From NCBI GenBank assembly GCA_003942085.1, contig DQIQ01000002.1:64898-98048 (forward strand): 33,151 nt of DNA, given 5' to 3'. Below, one piece after another: positions 15,168 through 30,436 of this stretch. The notes under the pieces are model-generated. The model was not told where the DNA came from and did not search any database. It worked only from the letters and a program-made list of their open reading frames with translations. Each line of letters begins with the position of its first letter. Within the stretch, counting starts at the first letter, position 1. This stretch comes from Thermoplasmata archaeon. GTDB taxonomy: Archaea; Thermoplasmatota; E2; DHVEG-1. The translations under genes and the position numbers were made by a program.

Positions 15168-17219
15168 TTAGAAAAGGATGTTTTGGAATCCAAGCAGATG
15201 TCGTAGGAGATGAAACATAAATGGGTGCTGTACGAAAATGTGCTGAAATAGAATGTTGAGTGTGAATGTATAGTCTTTTGGCATGCTAATGTCAAGTGTC
15301 GCCCAATCACTTTCTGTGGTAAGGGTGTCTTTTACTTTCGCTTTAATCGTATAGGCTCCTTTCTCTGTAAATGAGTGATTTATGGGTAAGGCTTGGCCTG
15401 CAGGGTACGGGCCGATCCATTCAACAGCAGGAGAACCATCTCCCCACTCAACCCAATATAAAACAGGTTCACCTCCGGGATTAGTTTCCACAAAGGTATA
15501 GGTGTAGGTTACTCCTCTTTTACCCTGAGTTGGACCATCGATGGAGGGTGGTGGCAGGTCATGATGAATAATTGTTGTTCCAAGGGGATTTGACCAGTTG
15601 CTCAGAGCCCCGTGTTCGTCACGAGCTTGTGTTTTTATTGTATAATTACCTGATGTGTTCCATGCGTGCGACAGACTTACGGGTTCACCTGAAGAAACCA
15701 TCGTAGTCCAATTGCTGTAGTCATGGGAACTAGCAGCATCCCAGTCAAATCGATATTGTAATTCATCCCCATCCGAATCGACAGTGCTCGTCGTAAATGT
15801 TCCTGATTCTTCAACGTAGAGAACTGAGGGTCCAGTCGGTGTGGTCGGTATATCTGGTATTCTATTGATGTTGAAACACGAACTATGTCTGAGATCATGT
15901 CGAAACATAGGCCATCCTTGGTTTTCTCCATTGCCCGCTGTAAGAGCATATGCTCTTCCGTAGTTGTTCGTCTCTGGCGATGAAACACCATAACCACCTA
16001 TGATGAAGAGATCAAGTTTTCCATCGCCGTTGAAATCACCAATAACAGGTGCATGATCGATTTGAAAAAGCATCCCATAATGTGCCTGTAAATCATAAGT
16101 CCAAATGACCTCACCAGTGTCACCGCTCAGAACTCTTACCGTACCATCTTCCGATCCAAACGCGACATCTAATATATTGTCTCCATTCACATCTGCAATA
16201 GCTGCACCGCGAAAGATATTACCACCAGCAGAATAACTCCAGAGTAATGATCCAGTATGTGATAAAACACCAAGAATGTTATAGGCGACAAACACGATCT
16301 CGAAATGATTATCATTATTCAGATCCGCAATCGATGTCGGTGCTCCAACATAAAACGGTGCAAGGTAATTCCACACTGGGCTGCCATCTTCGCTATTCAC
16401 CACATAGACATGACTGTCATAACAACCGATTGCAATTTCAGCTCTCCCATCCTCATCGATGTCTGCAAATGAACCACCATGATACATCCAGTCCTGAGGT
16501 TGGTTGGAATACCATTTCGTCGATCCGTTTTCTCCGTTCAAAGCATAAATCCTATGATCGCCATTCCATTGCGCCACGACGATGTCTAATTTTTGGTCAC
16601 CATTGATATCAAGAATGTTGGGGCATGATTGAATATAACTATTTGTTCCAAGGTTTATTTGCCAACATATACTGCCATCTTCCCCATTCAGACAGAAGAC
16701 ATAGCCGTGAAAGGTGCCAATTATAACCTCTGGTTTGTTATCATTATCAACATCAGCAACTGCCGGGGGCGAGTCAATACAGTTTGCGGTTCCTGTGAAT
16801 CTTGACCATTTTATTGAACCGGTCATCCCATTAAAACAGTACACGGTTGACGGTGAAGATGCTGGAATCACCACTTCTAGATTGCCGTCTAAATCAACAT
16901 CTGCGATGGCTGGGGATGCATCATTACATCCACCGGTATTATAACTCCAAAGGAGAGATCCATCGTCTGCGTTTAACGCGTAGACGCTTTCGTCATTAAA
17001 ATAGGTTCCAAAAACGATTTCCAATTTACCATCATTGTCAATATCCCCGGTTGCAGATGACCCAAATGATGGTGCTTGTAAATCATACCACCAAAGTATT
17101 TGTGGAGATGATCCAGTGCTTGATTGTTTTGTCGCGGCATAACTTTGAACAGCGCCTCCAATACATAATATCATGCATAATACTGCGATCCACACTTTCT
17201 GGTACATATCCACGTCCAT
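15168..17219 (-). CDS. Exported FG-GAP/VCBS beta-propeller protein with PKD domains and a C-terminal LRHLLG tail
   Basis: Signal peptide (MYQKVWIAVLCMILCIGGAVQSYA); eight D.(D/N).D...(E/D) metal-binding-type motifs (DIDNDGKLEIVFG, DVDLDGNLEVVIP, DVDNDNKPEVIIG, DINGDQKLDIVVA, DIDEDGRAEIAIG, DLNNDNHFEIVFV, DVNGDNILDVAFG, DFNGDGKLDLFII); PKD-like NYTIKTQARDEHGALSNWS and AYTIKAKVKDTLTTESDW. Confidence 0.88.
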   Translation of the reverse strand: MDVDMYQKVWIAVLCMILCIGGAVQSYAATKQSSTGSSPQILWWYDLQAPSFGSSATGDIDNDGKLEIVFGTYFNDESVYALNADDGSLLWSYNTGGCNDASPAIADVDLDGNLEVVIPASSPSTVYCFNGMTGSIKWSRFTGTANCIDSPPAVADVDNDNKPEVIIGTFHGYVFCLNGEDGSICWQINLGTNSYIQSCPNILDINGDQKLDIVVAQWNGDHRIYALNGENGSTKWYSNQPQDWMYHGGSFADIDEDGRAEIAIGCYDSHVYVVNSEDGSPVWNYLAPFYVGAPTSIADLNNDNHFEIVFVAYNILGVLSHTGSLLWSYSAGGNIFRGAAIADVNGDNILDVAFGSEDGTVRVLSGDTGEVIWTYDLQAHYGMLFQIDHAPVIGDFNGDGKLDLFIIGGYGVSSPETNNYGRAYALTAGNGENQGWPMFRHDLRHSSCFNINRIPDIPTTPTGPSVLYVEESGTFTTSTVDSDGDELQYRFDWDAASSHDYSNWTTMVSSGEPVSLSHAWNTSGNYTIKTQARDEHGALSNWSNPLGTTIIHHDLPPPSIDGPTQGKRGVTYTYTFVETNPGGEPVLYWVEWGDGSPAVEWIGPYPAGQALPINHSFTEKGAYTIKAKVKDTLTTESDWATLDISMPKDYTFTLNILFQHIFVQHPFMFHLLRHLLGFQNILF

Positions 17220-17313
17220 GGTGTCCTCTCCTGTTTTTCAAATATGCCCCATGGCATTTAAATGTTTTCTCTGTGATAAAATCAACAAAAAACTATTTTT
17301 CTGAGCAAAGATT

Positions 17314-17841
17314 TCAGATGATTGTAAATGTGTTTACACTCTGATCAACCACTGAAACATACGTATCAAATGTATTAACCAAAGAAGTGTATGTCACGGA
17401 ACATATCGTGTTATTTTTTTCAAAAGGACTTATTTGTGTTGGAGCATGTATGGTTCTTGACCTTCAGAGTATACCATTTCATGTGCGTTGAGACTATTGT
17501 CAATTTTTAGTTCGCTAGAAATAAGTGAAAAATTTTTAAAATAAGTATGAGTGTAACTTTCTATCATTTATTCGACAATTTTTTCCAGCGTTTTATTTGA
17601 GATTATTGGAACTTTTATGGCGAGATTAACTATATAATTATTTTGATCTGGTCATAGAAAATTAACATCGTCTTGAGTGTTTTCATTGGTTGTCCAGCCT
17701 GCCGGCGGGTTCAATCCGAACCCAAATTCTTAGTTTACATATCTCAAGCTATTTTGGTTTACATCTTGTGTGCATCCACTAAATACTATCGCTATAAACA
17801 CAAGCATGAATCCAGTCACCATGCAGTTTTTTCTTTCGCAT
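17314..17841 (-). pseudogene. Degraded lipoprotein gene with stops and frameshifts
   Basis: Minus-strand reading gives MRKKKL / MVTGFMLVFIAIVFSGCTQDVNQNSLRYVN* EFGFGLNPPAGWTTNENTQDDVNFL* PDQNNYIVNLAIKVPIISNKTLEKIVE* MIESYTHTYFKNFSLISSELKIDNSLNAHEMVYSEGQEPYMLQHK* ... (frameshift) TYTSLVNTFDTYVSVVDQSVNTFTII*. Confidence 0.72.
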
Positions 17842-17972
17842 GGTTCTCTGATATATAACAGATTAGGAGTTTTCCTAGTTAAAACTTTTTATTTTCAACT
17901 TCTATTTTTTCCTCTAAAACTGATCTAAGATGTTAGATAGAAAATGCAGTATAAAAAATAAAGAAGAAAGAA

Positions 17973-17988
17973 GGGGTCCTAGTACCCC
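17973..17988 (-). terminator. Hairpin overlapping the stop codon of the C25 protease gene, followed by a T-rich tract
   Basis: Minus strand GGGGT-ACTAGG-ACCCC then TTCTTTCTTCTTTATTTTTTAT. Confidence 0.45.
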
Positions 17989-20486
17989 ATGAGATGTCGT
18001 AAGATTGGGAACATGTGCGGGAACGTCTCTAGAAGATGCTGAATGAATCCACTGAATGAGAACCGATACTCAAACGGCATTACTATATCCATAGTGCCCC
18101 AGTCGCTTTCATCACCTTGTACATCTTTTGCCTTAATTTTTATCTGATAGGTTCCATCTTGGCTAAAGCTATGTGTAGTTGTCGCCGTTACACCAGAGTG
18201 ATATGGTCCAAGCCAACCGCTCGTCGTGTTATCTCCCCAGTCGATATAATAATAGACATCGTCACCGTTTGCGTCTGTCGTAGAAAATTTATAGAGGTAG
18301 TTTGCCCCGGTTTTTCCCTTTGCCGGACCTGATATGTCCGGAGTGTTTGGCGGGTCGTTCAGCACAATAGTCATCGTCAATGGTTCTGACCAGCCGCTTG
18401 TAGCACTGTTTGTATCCTTTGCCTTTACTTTTACACTATAATTCCCCGTTGCGGACCAGGAATGACTGTCAGATATGGTAAATCCCGACGCGTAAGGCCC
18501 AAGCCATCCGCTTGAGGTTCCATCGCCCCAGTTGAACATATAAAAGATTTGATCACCGTTAGGATCGGTTGTTTTACTTGAGTAGGTATATTCATTGTTT
18601 AGGACTCCATGTACTGGCCCGGTTGGTTTTGATGGTGCGTAGGGTGCATCACTGGTGGTCACAGGACCCATGGTCAAATCCGGGTTGCCGAAAAGTGATC
18701 CCCATTCAAACATTTCCATATATGTACCAGCAGTCCAGAGATTGTTGACATACATCTGTCGTAATGCCCATTGATGAGCTTGACCTTGTGTGTAGTTTCC
18801 TGAGGTACAACAAGTGGTAAAGAAGTAATCAAGCGACTGACTTGACCCGTCCATTGGGTCATTCCAGCCAGGCTGGCCATAGGCAATCTTATTAGAGCCA
18901 AGGAATCCAATAGCGCCTTGTTTTAGCATCGCCTGGCCAATATTCAAATAGTCAGTATCGGAGTTGCTGCACGAATCTGCAAAGATAATCGAAGGATAAT
19001 TGTCATTAAGAGAAAGGCAGGTTGTTTCATCAACAAAAGGCTGAGATGGATAATATTCATACGTTGCTTCAGGTGATCCATGTCCTGCCCAGTCCACGAA
19101 CGCATAAGTTCCTGCAGACCATACTGACTCGACATTATTATAATCCAGGTTGTAGTCACAGGGATATGACGATTGCGCGTCCTCATACAGACGGGTCATC
19201 GTCCAATCAGTCATCCACTCCTGATCGACTTTTGCTTCCATGAGCACTGCGTTATCCGTATCATCCCAGAAGAATGCACCGAGAAGGAGGATGTTTTTCT
19301 TAAATGAATCATCGTTGTTCTGTTCATAGGCAACAGATTTTTCACAAATGCTTTGTACTGTGTCAGGATCGCTCCATGGGATACGACCAACGTTAATTTC
19401 AGTCTCAAAATCAATAGGATCGGAGTTCTCTCCATATTGATGATCTCCATCAACATCCCAGGACTCACTGTCGGGAAGTGAGAGCTCTGCATAGTAGTAA
19501 TCAGTTTCAGGTTCTTGCCAGGTGGTTCGCATAGGTACGTCATCGACATTACCAATGAGACACACATCTAGAATGCCCCATTCTTCCGAGGGGTATTTCT
19601 CAAGGAGAAACGCTCTCATTTTTGCTGAAAGATCATAACCCTCATAATTACTATTAATCCATTCTGTGGTAACCACATTGACATTATGCCCCTTGGCACT
19701 TTCCCAGTCTGCGAGGGATGTCACAGATGAAGTCAACGAATCAAGCGTGATAATCACATAATCATATTGTTCTCTATCTCTAGGACCATCTGGATACCAG
19801 TTCTTCGCTTGGTCATAATTTATAATGATTTCTTGTGCAGTGCGTTCTGTTTGTGGAATATTATCGATCATAATGTTTTTGGAGGATGTTCCTACGGGAA
19901 AAGTATAATGCACAATGACCGTGATATCTTGGTAATACATTAATTTACCAGAAAGCGGGTAGTAAATAAACGGAGAGATTCTCACATCAACAAGGTTATA
20001 TTTCCGATATCCACCTGTTCCAATAACCTCTCCAATCGAAAGTGGATAGGGATTGTTCTGGCCATAGACGGTTTTATAGTTCTCGTCGTAATGGTGTTGA
20101 TCATCTGCATAGCTTGCTGAATTCTCAGAGCCGATGACCCGGGGGAGCGAACTGGGCGGAATCTGGTACAGTCCATGGATGTCGATGCCTTCTTTTGTCT
20201 CAAATACAACATCGCGAACCTTTGCACCTGGAGGTATAGCGATAGAAAATATCTTCGACGGCATATTTGGTTTTCCTGGTATCATTAAACGACCGTAATT
20301 TTCGACTGTTATTTCTTGGCCCACGTTTGTTTCTTTGATCTCATATTTGCCTACAGGAATATTCACCGTAATCGTGCCATCTTCTATAGTAATACCTTGT
20401 TTGCTTTTTATCACTGCATTGGCACTGACCAGTGCACCGCAAATCATCAGCATACATACAAAAATACCTATTATTTTCTTCATCAT
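17979..20486 (-). CDS. Exported gingipain-like cysteine peptidase (family C25) with two PKD domains and a C-terminal LRHLMG tail
   Basis: Signal peptide MKKIIGIFVCMLMICGALVSANA; propeptide-like N-terminus (GRLMIPGKPNMPSKIFSIAIPPGAKVRDV); REQYDYVIITLDSL; candidate catalytic His in DWAGHGSPEATYEY and Cys in IIFADSCSNSDTDY; two PKD units (NYSVKVKAKDTNSATSGWS, TYQIKIKAKDVQGDESDW). Confidence 0.92.
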   Translation of the reverse strand: MMKKIIGIFVCMLMICGALVSANAVIKSKQGITIEDGTITVNIPVGKYEIKETNVGQEITVENYGRLMIPGKPNMPSKIFSIAIPPGAKVRDVVFETKEGIDIHGLYQIPPSSLPRVIGSENSASYADDQHHYDENYKTVYGQNNPYPLSIGEVIGTGGYRKYNLVDVRISPFIYYPLSGKLMYYQDITVIVHYTFPVGTSSKNIMIDNIPQTERTAQEIIINYDQAKNWYPDGPRDREQYDYVIITLDSLTSSVTSLADWESAKGHNVNVVTTEWINSNYEGYDLSAKMRAFLLEKYPSEEWGILDVCLIGNVDDVPMRTTWQEPETDYYYAELSLPDSESWDVDGDHQYGENSDPIDFETEINVGRIPWSDPDTVQSICEKSVAYEQNNDDSFKKNILLLGAFFWDDTDNAVLMEAKVDQEWMTDWTMTRLYEDAQSSYPCDYNLDYNNVESVWSAGTYAFVDWAGHGSPEATYEYYPSQPFVDETTCLSLNDNYPSIIFADSCSNSDTDYLNIGQAMLKQGAIGFLGSNKIAYGQPGWNDPMDGSSQSLDYFFTTCCTSGNYTQGQAHQWALRQMYVNNLWTAGTYMEMFEWGSLFGNPDLTMGPVTTSDAPYAPSKPTGPVHGVLNNEYTYSSKTTDPNGDQIFYMFNWGDGTSSGWLGPYASGFTISDSHSWSATGNYSVKVKAKDTNSATSGWSEPLTMTIVLNDPPNTPDISGPAKGKTGANYLYKFSTTDANGDDVYYYIDWGDNTTSGWLGPYHSGVTATTTHSFSQDGTYQIKIKAKDVQGDESDWGTMDIVMPFEYRFSFSGFIQHLLETFPHMFPILRHLMGY

Positions 20487-20819
20487 TTATTTCTACCTCA
20501 AACCCAATATTAACAAAAGTTATAGAGGGGGAGCTAGTATATAAACCTTCATATAAATTACAGTAAAAAATGAAAAAACAATTATTTTTTACGATTTCAA
20601 ATACAGAAAAAATGAGGAATAATTATGACCGAAAATCTAAAATATTTTTCATAGCTGAAAAAAACTTAAAATTGGTTAAGAAAAAAAGCAGAATAACATT
20701 GTAAATTGATCTGTCTACATCCTAAGAAATGCCTTTAAATGAACGACAAAACAAAAACCTCTTTTTAAATATGTATATATATAACATGCGACATAATGTC
20801 AAATAGTACGGGGGACATT

Positions 20820-23800
20820 ATGAGGAAAAAAAGTATCTCTATACAACTATTTTCTACGCTAGTATTGTGTGTTTTGGTTATCGCTTCGATCACTCAAGCG
20901 GTTATCAACACAAATGTAAGCGACAAGAAAAATATATTTAATAACGGGAGCGAAGGTGTCATACTATCAACAAACATATGGGAGGACACTTTTAGTAATG
21001 AGACAAAAATAGATCCAAGTCCACCAGGGGCTGGTCAGTCAGATAATTATATCGTTTCCGCTGGTCAGGTTTCTATGGCAAATACCTATTCAGCATGGAC
21101 GAATCCAGCCTGGACAAAAATGAAGCCTATTACGATTACCAACACTGCTGGTCAAACGCTTCTCAACACAGTAATCTATTTCAGTATTTCCCATGAATCT
21201 GGAATGCAATCAGCATTTCAGGACATACGATTTAAACATCAGAACAACCCAACCATCTGGTTAAATTATTGGATCGAGCGATACAATGCGACGACTGCGA
21301 ACGTCTGGGTGAAAGTTTCGTCTCTTCCCATGGGAACAAGTACGATGTACCTCTTCTATGGAAATCCCTCAGCGACTAGTCAGAGCAATTATTCTGGGGT
21401 TTTTAGTTGGTCAGCGTTCTGGGCTAACGATGAAAAGACCACAAACCATGCCAACAACGAAGGGACATGGGACCCTGATGTTTCTTATGGGGCTAATGAG
21501 TTTTTGGTTTCATGGGAGGAGGGACAACCATACTGGTTCCCATACTCCTTGGGTTTTAAGCAAGAAATCAGGGCATCGATATATGATGGAGAAGGAAACA
21601 AGTTAGTTGATGACAAACAGGTCTTTAACGATGGTACTCTTTATTTTAGGAACGAAAATCCATCTGCTGATTATGGTGGCGGAAAATACTTTGTCGCCTG
21701 GGAACACTATGCGACAACCGCTAACCCAAGTGTAACGACTGAGGACATCAAAGCAAGAACAGTCGTACGAAATGGCGATCAACTAACGCTCGGGGCTGTC
21801 ATTGATGTCTGTAGTGCAATCGATTGCCAGGCGGATGCCAATGTCCAATTTGACTCAGTAAACAACCGATTTTGTGTTGCCTGGGAAGATGCACGAAATG
21901 GAGAAACGAATTACAACATCTACGGGCGGCTATACGATACCAACGGCAACCCAGTTGGCGGCGAAAAAGGTATTGCTACTGCTACCTATAGCCAATGTGA
22001 AGTATCGGTTGCTTTTGATCCGATTCACGAGCAATATATGATCGTATGGGAGGAGGGAATAACCCCTGATAACGGTCCATTTAGTATAAAAGCAGGAATC
22101 TTTGATGAAAACCTCAATCAAATTGGTAGTACAATTACCATAGCCACCGGCAGCGATGCAGTTGATTATAACTTCCCCTGTGTTGAGTTCTGCCAGCAAA
22201 CCCAGCGTTACCTTGTCACATGGAATAACGATGACCTCAGTACAGGCGACTGGTGGGGAAATCTCTGGGGTAAGATATTTGATTCAGCAGGAAGCGTGGT
22301 CGTCAACACATTTGAGATCAAATCAGGCGAGTACGTTCGAATCGATATCGCTCCTTATCTTTCTTCCTCGTTCTTCATCTCATTCAACAGCAAAGGCGCT
22401 AGTGGATCTGGTTTGATTTGGGGCAAGATACTTTCATCAACTGGAGAGCTTATCGGCGGCGACATTCAGCTATCCGTGAGTCCTTCAGCTCTTGCTGATT
22501 GGGCAAATATCGGTGTCGGCAACAATAAAGTGTTTGCCGGCTGGGAGGATATTCGGATAACGTATCCCTCTCCATGGGATGATATGCCTGATGTATACAG
22601 CAATCTTTTCTCTTCTTCCATAGCAGGATCAAGTGTGACCTATTCGACCGGTGCTGAAAAACAACTTGTGTTGTCCGCTCATGTGACCTCTGTTCAGATT
22701 ATTCCAACGAACTTTCATTCCTGGGATATTTTCAATGCGACCTATATCAATGGTACCATAACATTCGATATCCTTGATGGAACAACCGGTGCCCTGCTTC
22801 TGCAAGGAGTCTTGCCTGGTTGGAATCTTAATGCACACGGCATCATCGCACCGACCGTTCGACTCAAGGCGACGTTTTCCAGAGCAAACCCATCCACTAC
22901 CCCAAAGCTCGATAAATGGAGTGTAAAATGGCAGCTCAATGAGCCGCCAAATGCCCCCAGTAGCCCCAACCCAGCTGATGGTTCAACCGATGTTCCTGTC
23001 ACAACCGATCTGAGCTGGACCGGTGGAGATCCAAACGGAGACCCAGTCACCTATGACGTGTATTTTGGGACAACCAGTCCGCCGTCAAAAATGATCGGCA
23101 ATCAGTCTGCAACTACGTATGATACTGGAACGATGAGTTACGGGACACCCTATTACTGGAAGATAGTTGCCTGGGATAACCATGGAGGCACCACTACAGG
23201 TCCTCTCTGGCATTTCACCACCCACAACGACCCCCCGAACACTCCAAGCAACCCAAACCCGGCAAACGGAGCAACAGGTGTATCTATCGACACTGATCTG
23301 AGTTGGACCGGTGGTGATCCAAACCCTGGCGATACCGTCACCTACGACGTCTACTTTGATGTGACAACCCCCCCAACAACAAAAGTTTCTGCCAATCAAA
23401 CCAGTCTCTTTTATGATACTGGCGCTATGGGCTATAATGTTCATCATTACTGGAAGATCGTTTCTTGGGACAACCATGGTGCTTCAACCTCTGGAATAAT
23501 ATGGGGTTTCACAACAGAAAATAGAGCACCCTATGAACCCACATCTCCATCACCGCCTCAAGGAGCAACCGGTGTGGCCATCACCGCTGATCTGAGTTGG
23601 ACCGGAGGCGACCCTGATGGTGACCCTGTGACCTACAACGTCTATTTTGGAACCAGCAACCCACCACCAAAAGTAGCCAACAATCAGTCTGCTACCACCT
23701 ATGATTTACCAACCCTTTCCTACGGAACGACCTATTACTGGAAGATCGTTTCTTGGGACAACCACGGTGCATCAGCAGCAGGGCTCCTGTGGACGTTCAT

Positions 23801-25916
23801 GACAAACACTCTGCCCTCAGAGCCAAGCAGTCCCAGTCCCGCTAACCATGCGACCGGAGTCGATATTAACACTGATCTGAGCTGGACCGGTGGTGATCCT
23901 GACCCTGGAGACAGCGTCCTGTACGATGTTTACTTCGGCACTGCCAATCCTCCGCCGAAAGTCGCCAGCAACCAGTCTGCAGCCTTATATGATCCCGGAA
24001 CGATGAGCTACCTTGTCACCTATCATTGGAAGATCGTTTCCTGGGACAGTCACGGTGCATCAAAATCAAGCCAACTCTGGGATTTCACCACGACGTTTGT
24101 ACCGAATAATCCTCCGTATATCCCCAGTAATCCCAATCCTCAGAATCACGCAAACAATGTCGGTATCGATAGTGATCTTGGTTGGACTGGTGGAGATCCT
24201 GACCCTGGTGATACCGTCACCTACGACGTCTATTTTGGCTCAACCAACCCCCCGCCGCTCATAAGCCTTGGGCATCCGAATACCAACTATGATCCTGGTA
24301 GCCTCAGTTACAGCACAACCTATTACTGGAAGATCATTTCCTGGGATAACCGCGGTGCATCCACGCCAGGTCCTCTTTGGGATTTCACCACGACTGCTGT
24401 GCCAAATAATCCTCCTTATGTTCCCAATTCTCCTAATCCAACCAACCATGCGATAGGCGTTAACATCAACGCCAATCTCGGCTGGACCAGTGGCGACCCA
24501 GACCCAGGCGACACCGTGCTGTACGATGTCTATTTCGGGACGACCAATACGCCTGCAAAGATAGTCAGCAATCAGTCGGGCACCTTCTATGATCCAGGGA
24601 CAATGAATTACCAAACCGCCTATTACTGGAAGATAGTTGCCTGGGATAACCATGGAGCGTCATCATCAGGCCCTCTCTGGGATTTTACTACAGAAAACGA
24701 GGTAAACAATCCTCCGTATCTACCCTCAGATCCTTTCCCGGTCAATCATGCATCTAGTGTCGACCTCAATGCTGATCTGAGTTGGAACGGAGGCGATCCT
24801 GATCCGGGGGATACGGTAACCTATGACGTGTGCTTCGGAACGACCAATCCGCCCCCCAAAGTCGTGGGTAATCAATCTGGGATGTCCTATGATCCCGGTA
24901 TAATGAACTACCAAGCGACCTATTACTGGAAGATAGTTGCCTGGGACAACCACGATGCATCGACGCAGGGCTCCCTGTGGGATTTCACGACGATAGATGA
25001 GCCGAACGATCCGCCGTATGCACCATCGGGCCCATCACCAGCAGATGGAGCTACAAACGTGGATGTCACGGCAAACCTTGGATGGACCGGTGGCGACCCA
25101 AATGGTGACACCGTCACCTATGATGTGTACTTTGGGACCAGCACACCACCATCAAAAGTAGCATCTAATCAGTCAGCGACGACCTATGAACCCGGTACGC
25201 TGGACTATACAACCACGTATTATTGGAAGATAGTCGCCTGGGATAACCATGGTGTATCAACAGAAGGTTCGATATGGCAGTTTACTACGACCACGGAGCC
25301 GAACAACCCTCCTTATACACCAGCTAATCCCTCGCCAGCAAATGGAGCAACAACTGTTGATGTCAATACAAGCCTCAGCTGGACCGGAGGCGACCCTGAT
25401 TCGGGTGATACCGTCACCTATGATGTCTACTTTGGAACGACGACACTTCCACCACTAATCGTCAGCAACCAGACGAGTTCAACCTATCAACCTTCTCCAC
25501 TAAACGAAAACACGACCTATTATTGGAAGATAGTCGCCTGGGATAACCATGGTTCTTCTGCCGTAGGTGCGGCATGGAGCTTTATCACAGAGACACTCGG
25601 TGATACAACATCACCAATCGTAAAAATCACCAAACCTGAGAAAGCAATTTATATCAAAAATAACAAGGTTCTGTCGTTCATCGCCACCCTTGTTTTCTTC
25701 GCCATCGACGTTGATGTCACCGCCACCGATAACGATTCAGGTGTCTCAAAAGTGGAATTCTACATTGACGATCAATACAAAGCAAACGACACCACTGCGC
25801 CTTACAGATGGACATGGAGCGAAAAAAGCCTGTTCGTTTACACCCTCAAAGTAATCGCGTATGATAACGCAGGACACCGTGCAACCGTAGAGACCAACGT
25901 ATGGAAGTTCTTCTAA
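20820..25916 (+). CDS. Giant exported surface protein: signal peptide, DUF2341-like domain, VAWED-type repeats, nine FN3-like repeats, C-terminal Ig-like domain
   Basis: MRKKSISIQLFSTLVLCVLVIASITQAV signal (second Met preferred over 20796); DUF2341-like WTKMKPITITNTAGQTLLNTVIYFSIS...MYLFYGNPSA; repeated FCVAWEDARNGETNYNIYGRLYDTNG; nine copies of a ~98-aa unit; C-terminal SGVSKVEFYIDDQYKANDTTAPYRWTW. Confidence 0.9.
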   Translation: MRKKSISIQLFSTLVLCVLVIASITQAVINTNVSDKKNIFNNGSEGVILSTNIWEDTFSNETKIDPSPPGAGQSDNYIVSAGQVSMANTYSAWTNPAWTKMKPITITNTAGQTLLNTVIYFSISHESGMQSAFQDIRFKHQNNPTIWLNYWIERYNATTANVWVKVSSLPMGTSTMYLFYGNPSATSQSNYSGVFSWSAFWANDEKTTNHANNEGTWDPDVSYGANEFLVSWEEGQPYWFPYSLGFKQEIRASIYDGEGNKLVDDKQVFNDGTLYFRNENPSADYGGGKYFVAWEHYATTANPSVTTEDIKARTVVRNGDQLTLGAVIDVCSAIDCQADANVQFDSVNNRFCVAWEDARNGETNYNIYGRLYDTNGNPVGGEKGIATATYSQCEVSVAFDPIHEQYMIVWEEGITPDNGPFSIKAGIFDENLNQIGSTITIATGSDAVDYNFPCVEFCQQTQRYLVTWNNDDLSTGDWWGNLWGKIFDSAGSVVVNTFEIKSGEYVRIDIAPYLSSSFFISFNSKGASGSGLIWGKILSSTGELIGGDIQLSVSPSALADWANIGVGNNKVFAGWEDIRITYPSPWDDMPDVYSNLFSSSIAGSSVTYSTGAEKQLVLSAHVTSVQIIPTNFHSWDIFNATYINGTITFDILDGTTGALLLQGVLPGWNLNAHGIIAPTVRLKATFSRANPSTTPKLDKWSVKWQLNEPPNAPSSPNPADGSTDVPVTTDLSWTGGDPNGDPVTYDVYFGTTSPPSKMIGNQSATTYDTGTMSYGTPYYWKIVAWDNHGGTTTGPLWHFTTHNDPPNTPSNPNPANGATGVSIDTDLSWTGGDPNPGDTVTYDVYFDVTTPPTTKVSANQTSLFYDTGAMGYNVHHYWKIVSWDNHGASTSGIIWGFTTENRAPYEPTSPSPPQGATGVAITADLSWTGGDPDGDPVTYNVYFGTSNPPPKVANNQSATTYDLPTLSYGTTYYWKIVSWDNHGASAAGLLWTFMTNTLPSEPSSPSPANHATGVDINTDLSWTGGDPDPGDSVLYDVYFGTANPPPKVASNQSAALYDPGTMSYLVTYHWKIVSWDSHGASKSSQLWDFTTTFVPNNPPYIPSNPNPQNHANNVGIDSDLGWTGGDPDPGDTVTYDVYFGSTNPPPLISLGHPNTNYDPGSLSYSTTYYWKIISWDNRGASTPGPLWDFTTTAVPNNPPYVPNSPNPTNHAIGVNINANLGWTSGDPDPGDTVLYDVYFGTTNTPAKIVSNQSGTFYDPGTMNYQTAYYWKIVAWDNHGASSSGPLWDFTTENEVNNPPYLPSDPFPVNHASSVDLNADLSWNGGDPDPGDTVTYDVCFGTTNPPPKVVGNQSGMSYDPGIMNYQATYYWKIVAWDNHDASTQGSLWDFTTIDEPNDPPYAPSGPSPADGATNVDVTANLGWTGGDPNGDTVTYDVYFGTSTPPSKVASNQSATTYEPGTLDYTTTYYWKIVAWDNHGVSTEGSIWQFTTTTEPNNPPYTPANPSPANGATTVDVNTSLSWTGGDPDSGDTVTYDVYFGTTTLPPLIVSNQTSSTYQPSPLNENTTYYWKIVAWDNHGSSAVGAAWSFITETLGDTTSPIVKITKPEKAIYIKNNKVLSFIATLVFFAIDVDVTATDNDSGVSKVEFYIDDQYKANDTTAPYRWTWSEKSLFVYTLKVIAYDNAGHRATVETNVWKFF
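22938..25602 (+). repeat. Tandem array of nine FN3-like coding repeats, about 296 nt each
   Basis: Unit pattern NNPPY.P..P.PANGAT.V....DLSWTGGDPDPGDTVTYDVYFGTTNPPPKV.SNQS...YDPGTM.Y.TTYYWKIVAWDNHGAST.GPLWDFTT repeated nine times. Confidence 0.95.
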
Positions 25917-29740: not shown

Positions 29741-29887
29741 CCTTCATTTTTTACTTTGTAGAATGAAATAACATCGACGTATAAAGAATTATTTCAACTG
29801 CTCATGATGTTCCAAAAATAACATATGATGTTCTATGATGAAGTTTAAATATAATACATTCGATTGCAGAAAATAGGTGAGGGCGAT

Positions 29888-30436
29888 ATGAAGTCAAAAA
29901 GAACGCTGTTTTTGTTAATGTTTGTAATCGGTCTTTGTTTTGCAATGGTGCTTGGTCCCCTATGTAGTGCTCAGCATGCTGTTGTTTCTATCAAGAATGT
30001 CAGTGTACAATTGGTAGAAACACGACCACCGGTGGGAAACAAGGTGATACGTGTCTACAATATTATTGCAGTCTTGCAAAATTCAGGTGACGTCAAATCA
30101 GATGAAATCAGTGTTTTTTTTTATGACCCTGAATATAATAAAACGACGACACCGCCCATAAAACTAACACCCTTTAATGTATCATTGAATCCTGATGAAA
30201 ATAAAACATTTATCCTTAATAACTGGCCGACACCGCTCACCGGTGATGTCCTTATCAATGTCAGCTTCAAGCCTTCGTTATCTGACGTTTTAAAAACCCA
30301 GGATAACTCCGGCTCTTATGTGTATCATCTGCAGATAGGAGCAACTAGGAAAACAACATCGACACCTGGTTTTGAGGTCGCGGTTGTTCTTTTCGCAATT
30401 CTTGCTCTTCTCGTAAAGAAACAAATAAAAAAATAA
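29888..30436 (+). CDS. Exported protein with CARDB-like domain and PGF-CTERM-like C-terminal sorting signal
   Basis: Signal MKSKRTLFLLMFVIGLCFAMVLGPLCSA; SD GGTGAGGG before ATG 29888; C-terminus TPGFEVAVVLFAILALLVKKQIKK. Confidence 0.82.
   Translation: MKSKRTLFLLMFVIGLCFAMVLGPLCSAQHAVVSIKNVSVQLVETRPPVGNKVIRVYNIIAVLQNSGDVKSDEISVFFYDPEYNKTTTPPIKLTPFNVSLNPDENKTFILNNWPTPLTGDVLINVSFKPSLSDVLKTQDNSGSYVYHLQIGATRKTTSTPGFEVAVVLFAILALLVKKQIKK

Follow-up and report, generated by a model that had tools for sequence, protein, structure and literature searches.

A portable terminal tag on exported proteins of one archaeal family, a candidate cell-surface attachment module

Two neighbouring exported proteins encoded in the window, that is, the whole stretch of 33,151 nucleotides that was analysed, end in a shared tail, which belongs to a family of short tags found on many exported proteins of one archaeal family. 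Neither the libraries nor the papers searched describe this tail family: Pfam and NCBIfam scans assigned no model to the tail apart from a sub-threshold DUF4404 match of one tail, and literature searches found no description of an archaeal tag of such kind. As the tag fills the slot in which relatives carry other end modules, among them dockerins, it is a probable undescribed surface-holding device, and we favour, with some reserve, the reading that it is a portable, lineage-specific cell-surface attachment (docking) module.

Results

The shared tail of the two window proteins

The first-pass annotation proposed that two adjacent, otherwise different exported proteins share a C-terminal tail. 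The letters quoted there for both tails were correct, while their extents were slightly short: including the last PKD strand, tail 1 (SDWATLDISMPKDYTFTLNILFQHIFVQHPFMFHLLRHLLGFQNILF) comprises 47 amino acids at 15171-15311 (-) followed by the stop codon at 15168-15170, and tail 2 (SDWGTMDIVMPFEYRFSFSGFIQHLLETFPHMFPILRHLMGY) comprises 42 amino acids at 17982-18107 (-) with the stop codon at 17979-17981. The two are 44% identical over 45 amino acids (E 7e-10); tail 2 is a typical type-1 tag, tail 1 a diverged one with five extra residues. Pfam scans confirmed that the proteins are unlike in the rest of their length. The first (15168-17219, minus strand) is a secreted FG-GAP/PQQ beta-propeller protein with two PKD domains, the last of which lies at approximately 15294-15554 (-), and the second (17979-20486, minus strand) is a secreted gingipain-type C25 peptidase made up of a propeptide, the C25 domain, two PKD domains (the last at 18099-18305 (-), AlphaFold2 pLDDT above 90) and tail 2.

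Two other terminal modules were seen in the window. An exported protein at 29864-30436 (+) has a PGF-CTERM-like end (..TTSTPGFEVAVVLFAILALLVKKQIKK*), and with it a second tag system, of the archaeosortase type, is present in the window's genome. The 1706-aa exoprotein at 20796-25916 (+) carries a C-terminal Big_7 domain ending in ..VWKFF*; this module also terminates other secreted proteins (M14 peptidases of G031, G002 and G011) and may represent another attachment class.

Copies, position and distribution of the tag

A search of the 2.02 Mb window genome with the 47-aa tail alone returned 13 genuine copies, all at ORF ends, and a refined profile (E<=1e-3) raised this number to 17, the highest count in any one genome being 79. 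The type-1 consensus reads MPxxYxxPxxxFxxxLLERFPxAFPILRHLL, while a type-2 variant (WWFMRWLDRFPLLQRLLGWFIW) with a Trp-rich sequence (NWWFMRWLDRFPLLQRLLGWFIW) occurs mainly in related genera. The best single-proteome test was offered by a near-complete relative assembled as one 1.92 Mb contig (G035), where 47 of 1,935 gene C-termini matched the profile versus 2 of 7,391 internal 60-residue pieces; one of these two was a chance match, and in the other the tag is truly used at the N-terminus. The sharing of the tail is thus not a matter of chance. Among the 152 distinct tails collected from fetched loci, from which matches ending more than 10 residues before the stop had been excluded (mostly partial alignments or frame effects), 129 end 0-1 residues before the stop codon, and copies in general almost always lie 0-2 residues from it. 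A weak tail at L261 is followed by about 119 residues, and at L006 (G000:C61:373-501) a TGA interrupts the tail two codons short of where it usually ends (..RHLM*Y*). The proposal that the tag sits at the extreme C-terminus therefore holds for nearly all copies and fails in four genomes, where DUF4382 proteins bear the tag at the mature N-terminus (see below).

At E<=1e-5, the tag was detected in 39 of the 46 genomes of the window's family (f1) and in 1 of 346 other genomes sampled across the phylum, the copy counts per genome in this survey being at-least values. Named records with tails include SG8-52-3 and SM1-50, both Thermoprofundales (MBG-D) MAGs (PMC6461988), from which we infer that family f1 corresponds to MBG-D/Thermoprofundales. 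Genomes are called tail-less here if type-1/2 matches are absent or almost absent; three of those counted so (G027, G062 and G021) have proteins in which PKD is followed by a diverged amphipathic end, and strongly diverged tails that keep only the amphipathic character occur in some genomes and paralogs. C25 peptidase matches numbered 10-33 per genome in all seven family genomes tested, tail-poor and tail-less ones included.

Cargo proteins and the relation of the tail to PKD

Pfam analysis of 39 tailed proteins of G035 revealed PKD, C25, propeller, NosD/beta-helix, M14, papain, beta-lactamase-like and other domains, and further cargo includes C10 peptidase, arylsulfotransferase-like, GH130-like and Omp28/glutaredoxin-like proteins. 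After leaving out 9 of the 47 tailed G035 genes, in which sequence gaps fall at or ahead of the N-terminus, a signal peptide was found in 34 of the 38 assessable proteins by a simple rule other than SignalP (in one of the 34 across a frameshift), so the tag indeed sits on exported proteins, as had been supposed. A Type I secretion C-terminal signal was discarded on the same count, since that class lacks an N-terminal signal peptide. The tailed genes of G035 are scattered, and no neighbour gene common to their neighbourhoods was found.

A PKD domain precedes 124 of 145 tails, and the similarity of paralogous tails owes partly to the common ancestry of a PKD+tail cassette. At least 21 tails, however, follow other domains, and the same PKD type is plentiful both in other families of the class and in tail-less genomes, G031 having 28 such domains, which shows that the tail is not part of PKD and, in agreement with the first-pass annotation, not merely its last strand.

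Exchange of end modules

Homologs of the window's C25 gene differ in how they end. Five of them (L045-L048 and L051) carry the tail, two others that are 64-66% identical (L049 and L050) have a beta end, 'GFGKIEVTATAE...VLLFFVHI', in its place, and two (L052 and L053) terminate in dockerin-like repeats, as judged by eye. The dockerin-ended C25-PKD protein at 609-2949 of L052 is 60% identical to that of the window; the contig is short and sits in a Zixiibacteriota (bacterial) bin, and this protein may reflect gene transfer or misbinning. The M14 peptidases of the family likewise end in the tail, a diverged tail, Big_7, the beta end or a dockerin, the last being identified by Pfam in G029 (3e-8), the only Dockerin_1 match obtained. 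The beta end, 'GFGKIxIxVxAE....VLLFFVIGV*', without a Pfam match, recurs C-terminally on exoproteins, at L049 and L050 (C25 ORF), L218, L225 and L227, and at the M14 loci L303, L308-L310, L316 and L319.

The tag is also used at the other end. One G035 protein consists of a signal peptide, the tag at the mature N-terminus and a DUF4382 domain (Pfam 3.8e-30), and alignments run through the tag-DUF4382 join with no intervening stop in G063, G068 and G003 as well, which brings this architecture to four genomes of three genera; another DUF4382 protein of G035 has a lipobox-like LLAC instead. The tag thus stands in for known attachment modules at either protein end, and this speaks against a sortase or secretion signal confined to the C-terminus.

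Predicted structure and constraint

AlphaFold2 modelling of PKD+tail (67 sequences) gave a confident PKD domain followed, at modest confidence (pLDDT about 64-71), by a helix at fragment residues 102-112 (18024-18056, minus strand), a Pro-containing break and a second helix at residues 116-123 (17991-18014, minus strand), so the tail is apparently a helix-Pro kink-helix detached from PKD. The suggested amphipathicity was borne out by a hydrophobic moment of 0.447 versus 0.331 in shuffled tails and by a peak at 110 degrees of 0.556 versus 0.337. None of 152 tails exceeded the transmembrane hydrophobicity threshold (KD 1.6 over 19 residues) and no CTERM model matched, in line with the earlier view that the tail is not a lipobox, a PGF-CTERM or a transmembrane anchor. 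Eisenberg's surface-seeking region holds only 19% of 151 tails, and their net charge is only about +0.8.

In 54 type-1 proteins, mean identity was 56% in the helix core, 41% in the adjacent PKD and 34% in the linker, and the core was more conserved than PKD in 86% of pairs. The polar positions were retained, E(-2) in 86%, R(+8) in 87%, Pro(+5) in 90% and G(+12) in 71%; Pro(+1) was demanded by the search pattern and hence is not counted as evidence of conservation. This constraint on the core, together with the small share of surface-seeking tails, favours specific contacts over plain partition into lipid.

Search for a partner or a processing enzyme

Archaeosortase (TIGR04178) was found in 40 of the 46 family genomes, including G026, G027, G029 and G031, which have no type-1/2 tails, and it was absent from G022 and from the tail-rich G069 (64% complete). 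Occurring irrespective of tails, it was rejected as the tail-processing enzyme, and no membrane enzyme co-varying with the tag was found. A partner screen with fragments of 33 surface or membrane proteins, a small part of such proteins, compared two tail-less with two tail-rich genomes and yielded no partner or receptor for the tag; many of the proteins occur in both kinds of genome. The single fitting candidate, g1659 (G035 C1:1672285-1673091), is a secreted protein with two TM helices, present mostly in single copy in 18 of the 46 family genomes, all 18 tailed. It is absent from the tail-rich G028 and G066, and is at most a weak lead.

Discussion

As a kind, the tail belongs with the known terminal attachment tags. 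Like type I dockerin, it is short, portable and terminal, equips many exported enzymes and takes the position that dockerin has in homologous peptidases of the C25 and M14 families; it differs in having no Ca-binding repeats, another sequence and another predicted fold. No Dockerin_1 (Pfam) match was reported in the tail or in tailed proteins, and we know of no cohesin-like partner for it. PGF-CTERM, the substrate tag of archaeosortase A, is likewise a family of C-terminal tags on archaeal surface proteins and occurs in the same genomes, whereas the tail lacks the PGF motif, the TM segment and the basic end, and archaeosortase does not co-vary with it. The C-terminal domains of type IX secretion are also conserved ends of C25 proteases and further secreted cargo. 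The tail, in contrast, is an archaeal helical element of about 30 residues, not a beta-sandwich, and is used N-terminally too. NCBIfam, in which TIGR04183 and TIGR04131 model the type IX C-terminal domains, gave no match to the tails. Amphipathic in-plane anchors resemble it as amphipathic helical elements without a TM segment, while the tail has fixed polar residues and prolines and mostly lies outside the surface-seeking range.

The main rival of docking is an in-plane membrane anchor: resting in the outer leaflet of the archaeal membrane, the amphipathic helices would need no receptor. The high moment and the 110-degree peak, the Trp-rich type-2 variant and the diverged tails that stay hydrophobic or amphipathic without the motif all suit this idea, and these diverged tails in fact fit membrane association equally well as docking. 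Yet lipid partition does not need a conserved E, R and Pro, the net charge is small and few tails are surface-seeking, so we hold a mere membrane anchor to be rather unlikely. A further alternative, in which a variant of the PKD family spread by duplication and the tail is just its end with no function of its own, is very improbable: a related PKD domain does precede most tails, but not those behind other domains nor the set N-terminal to DUF4382, PKD of the same type is common where tails are missing, and the tail core is conserved better than PKD.

The near-terminal position of nearly all copies, the diversity of exported cargoes and the C25 cargo, which recalls Porphyromonas, could also be expected of a C-terminal sorting or secretion signal, perhaps cleaved, for a dedicated machine of the type IX or archaeosortase kind. 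We consider this improbable given the N-terminal tags in four genomes, the archaeosortase gene that is present in tail-less genomes and missing from some tailed ones, the failure of T9SS and CTERM models to match the tail, and the absence of g1659, the sole candidate of the screen, from tail-rich genomes. A type IX-like export machinery, the system that the first-pass annotation likened to the tail in arrangement only, thus finds no support, the exchange with dockerin and Ig-type ends pointing elsewhere. The annotation's broader proposal of an anchoring or sorting-type tag fared better, as the tag is portable across cargo and swaps with dockerin and Big_7 ends; because of this exchange and of the N-terminal tag on DUF4382 proteins, attachment is preferred over an export or cleavage signal.

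According to the docking reading, the enzyme would leave the cell by Sec export bearing the tag, and the helix-Pro kink-helix, usually C-terminal and hung on a flexible MP(K/R)-type linker, would then tether it outside the cell, presumably uncleaved, keeping the digestion products close by. Since conservation is equally high at the polar E, R, Pro and G and at the hydrophobic positions, the tag would most likely bind a common protein partner, or other copies of itself, and not just lie in the membrane. MBG-D/Thermoprofundales are among the archaea most often met in sediments and are thought to break down detrital protein via secreted peptidases (PMC6461988). It is conceivable, though we put it forward only tentatively, that they assemble a cellulosome-like surface complex for detrital protein, with 20-80 exoenzymes, a helical tag and no cohesins; in such a complex the tag might possibly dock onto a dedicated receptor or onto other tags.

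With up to about 80 bearers in a genome, the tag brings together as a single class many secreted proteins that had no annotation, and in existing metaproteomes the tail could be tested for through its tryptic peptide, FPHAFPILR or FPNAFPILR. The tag bears on how MBG-D archaea retain their secreted enzymes and the products of these.
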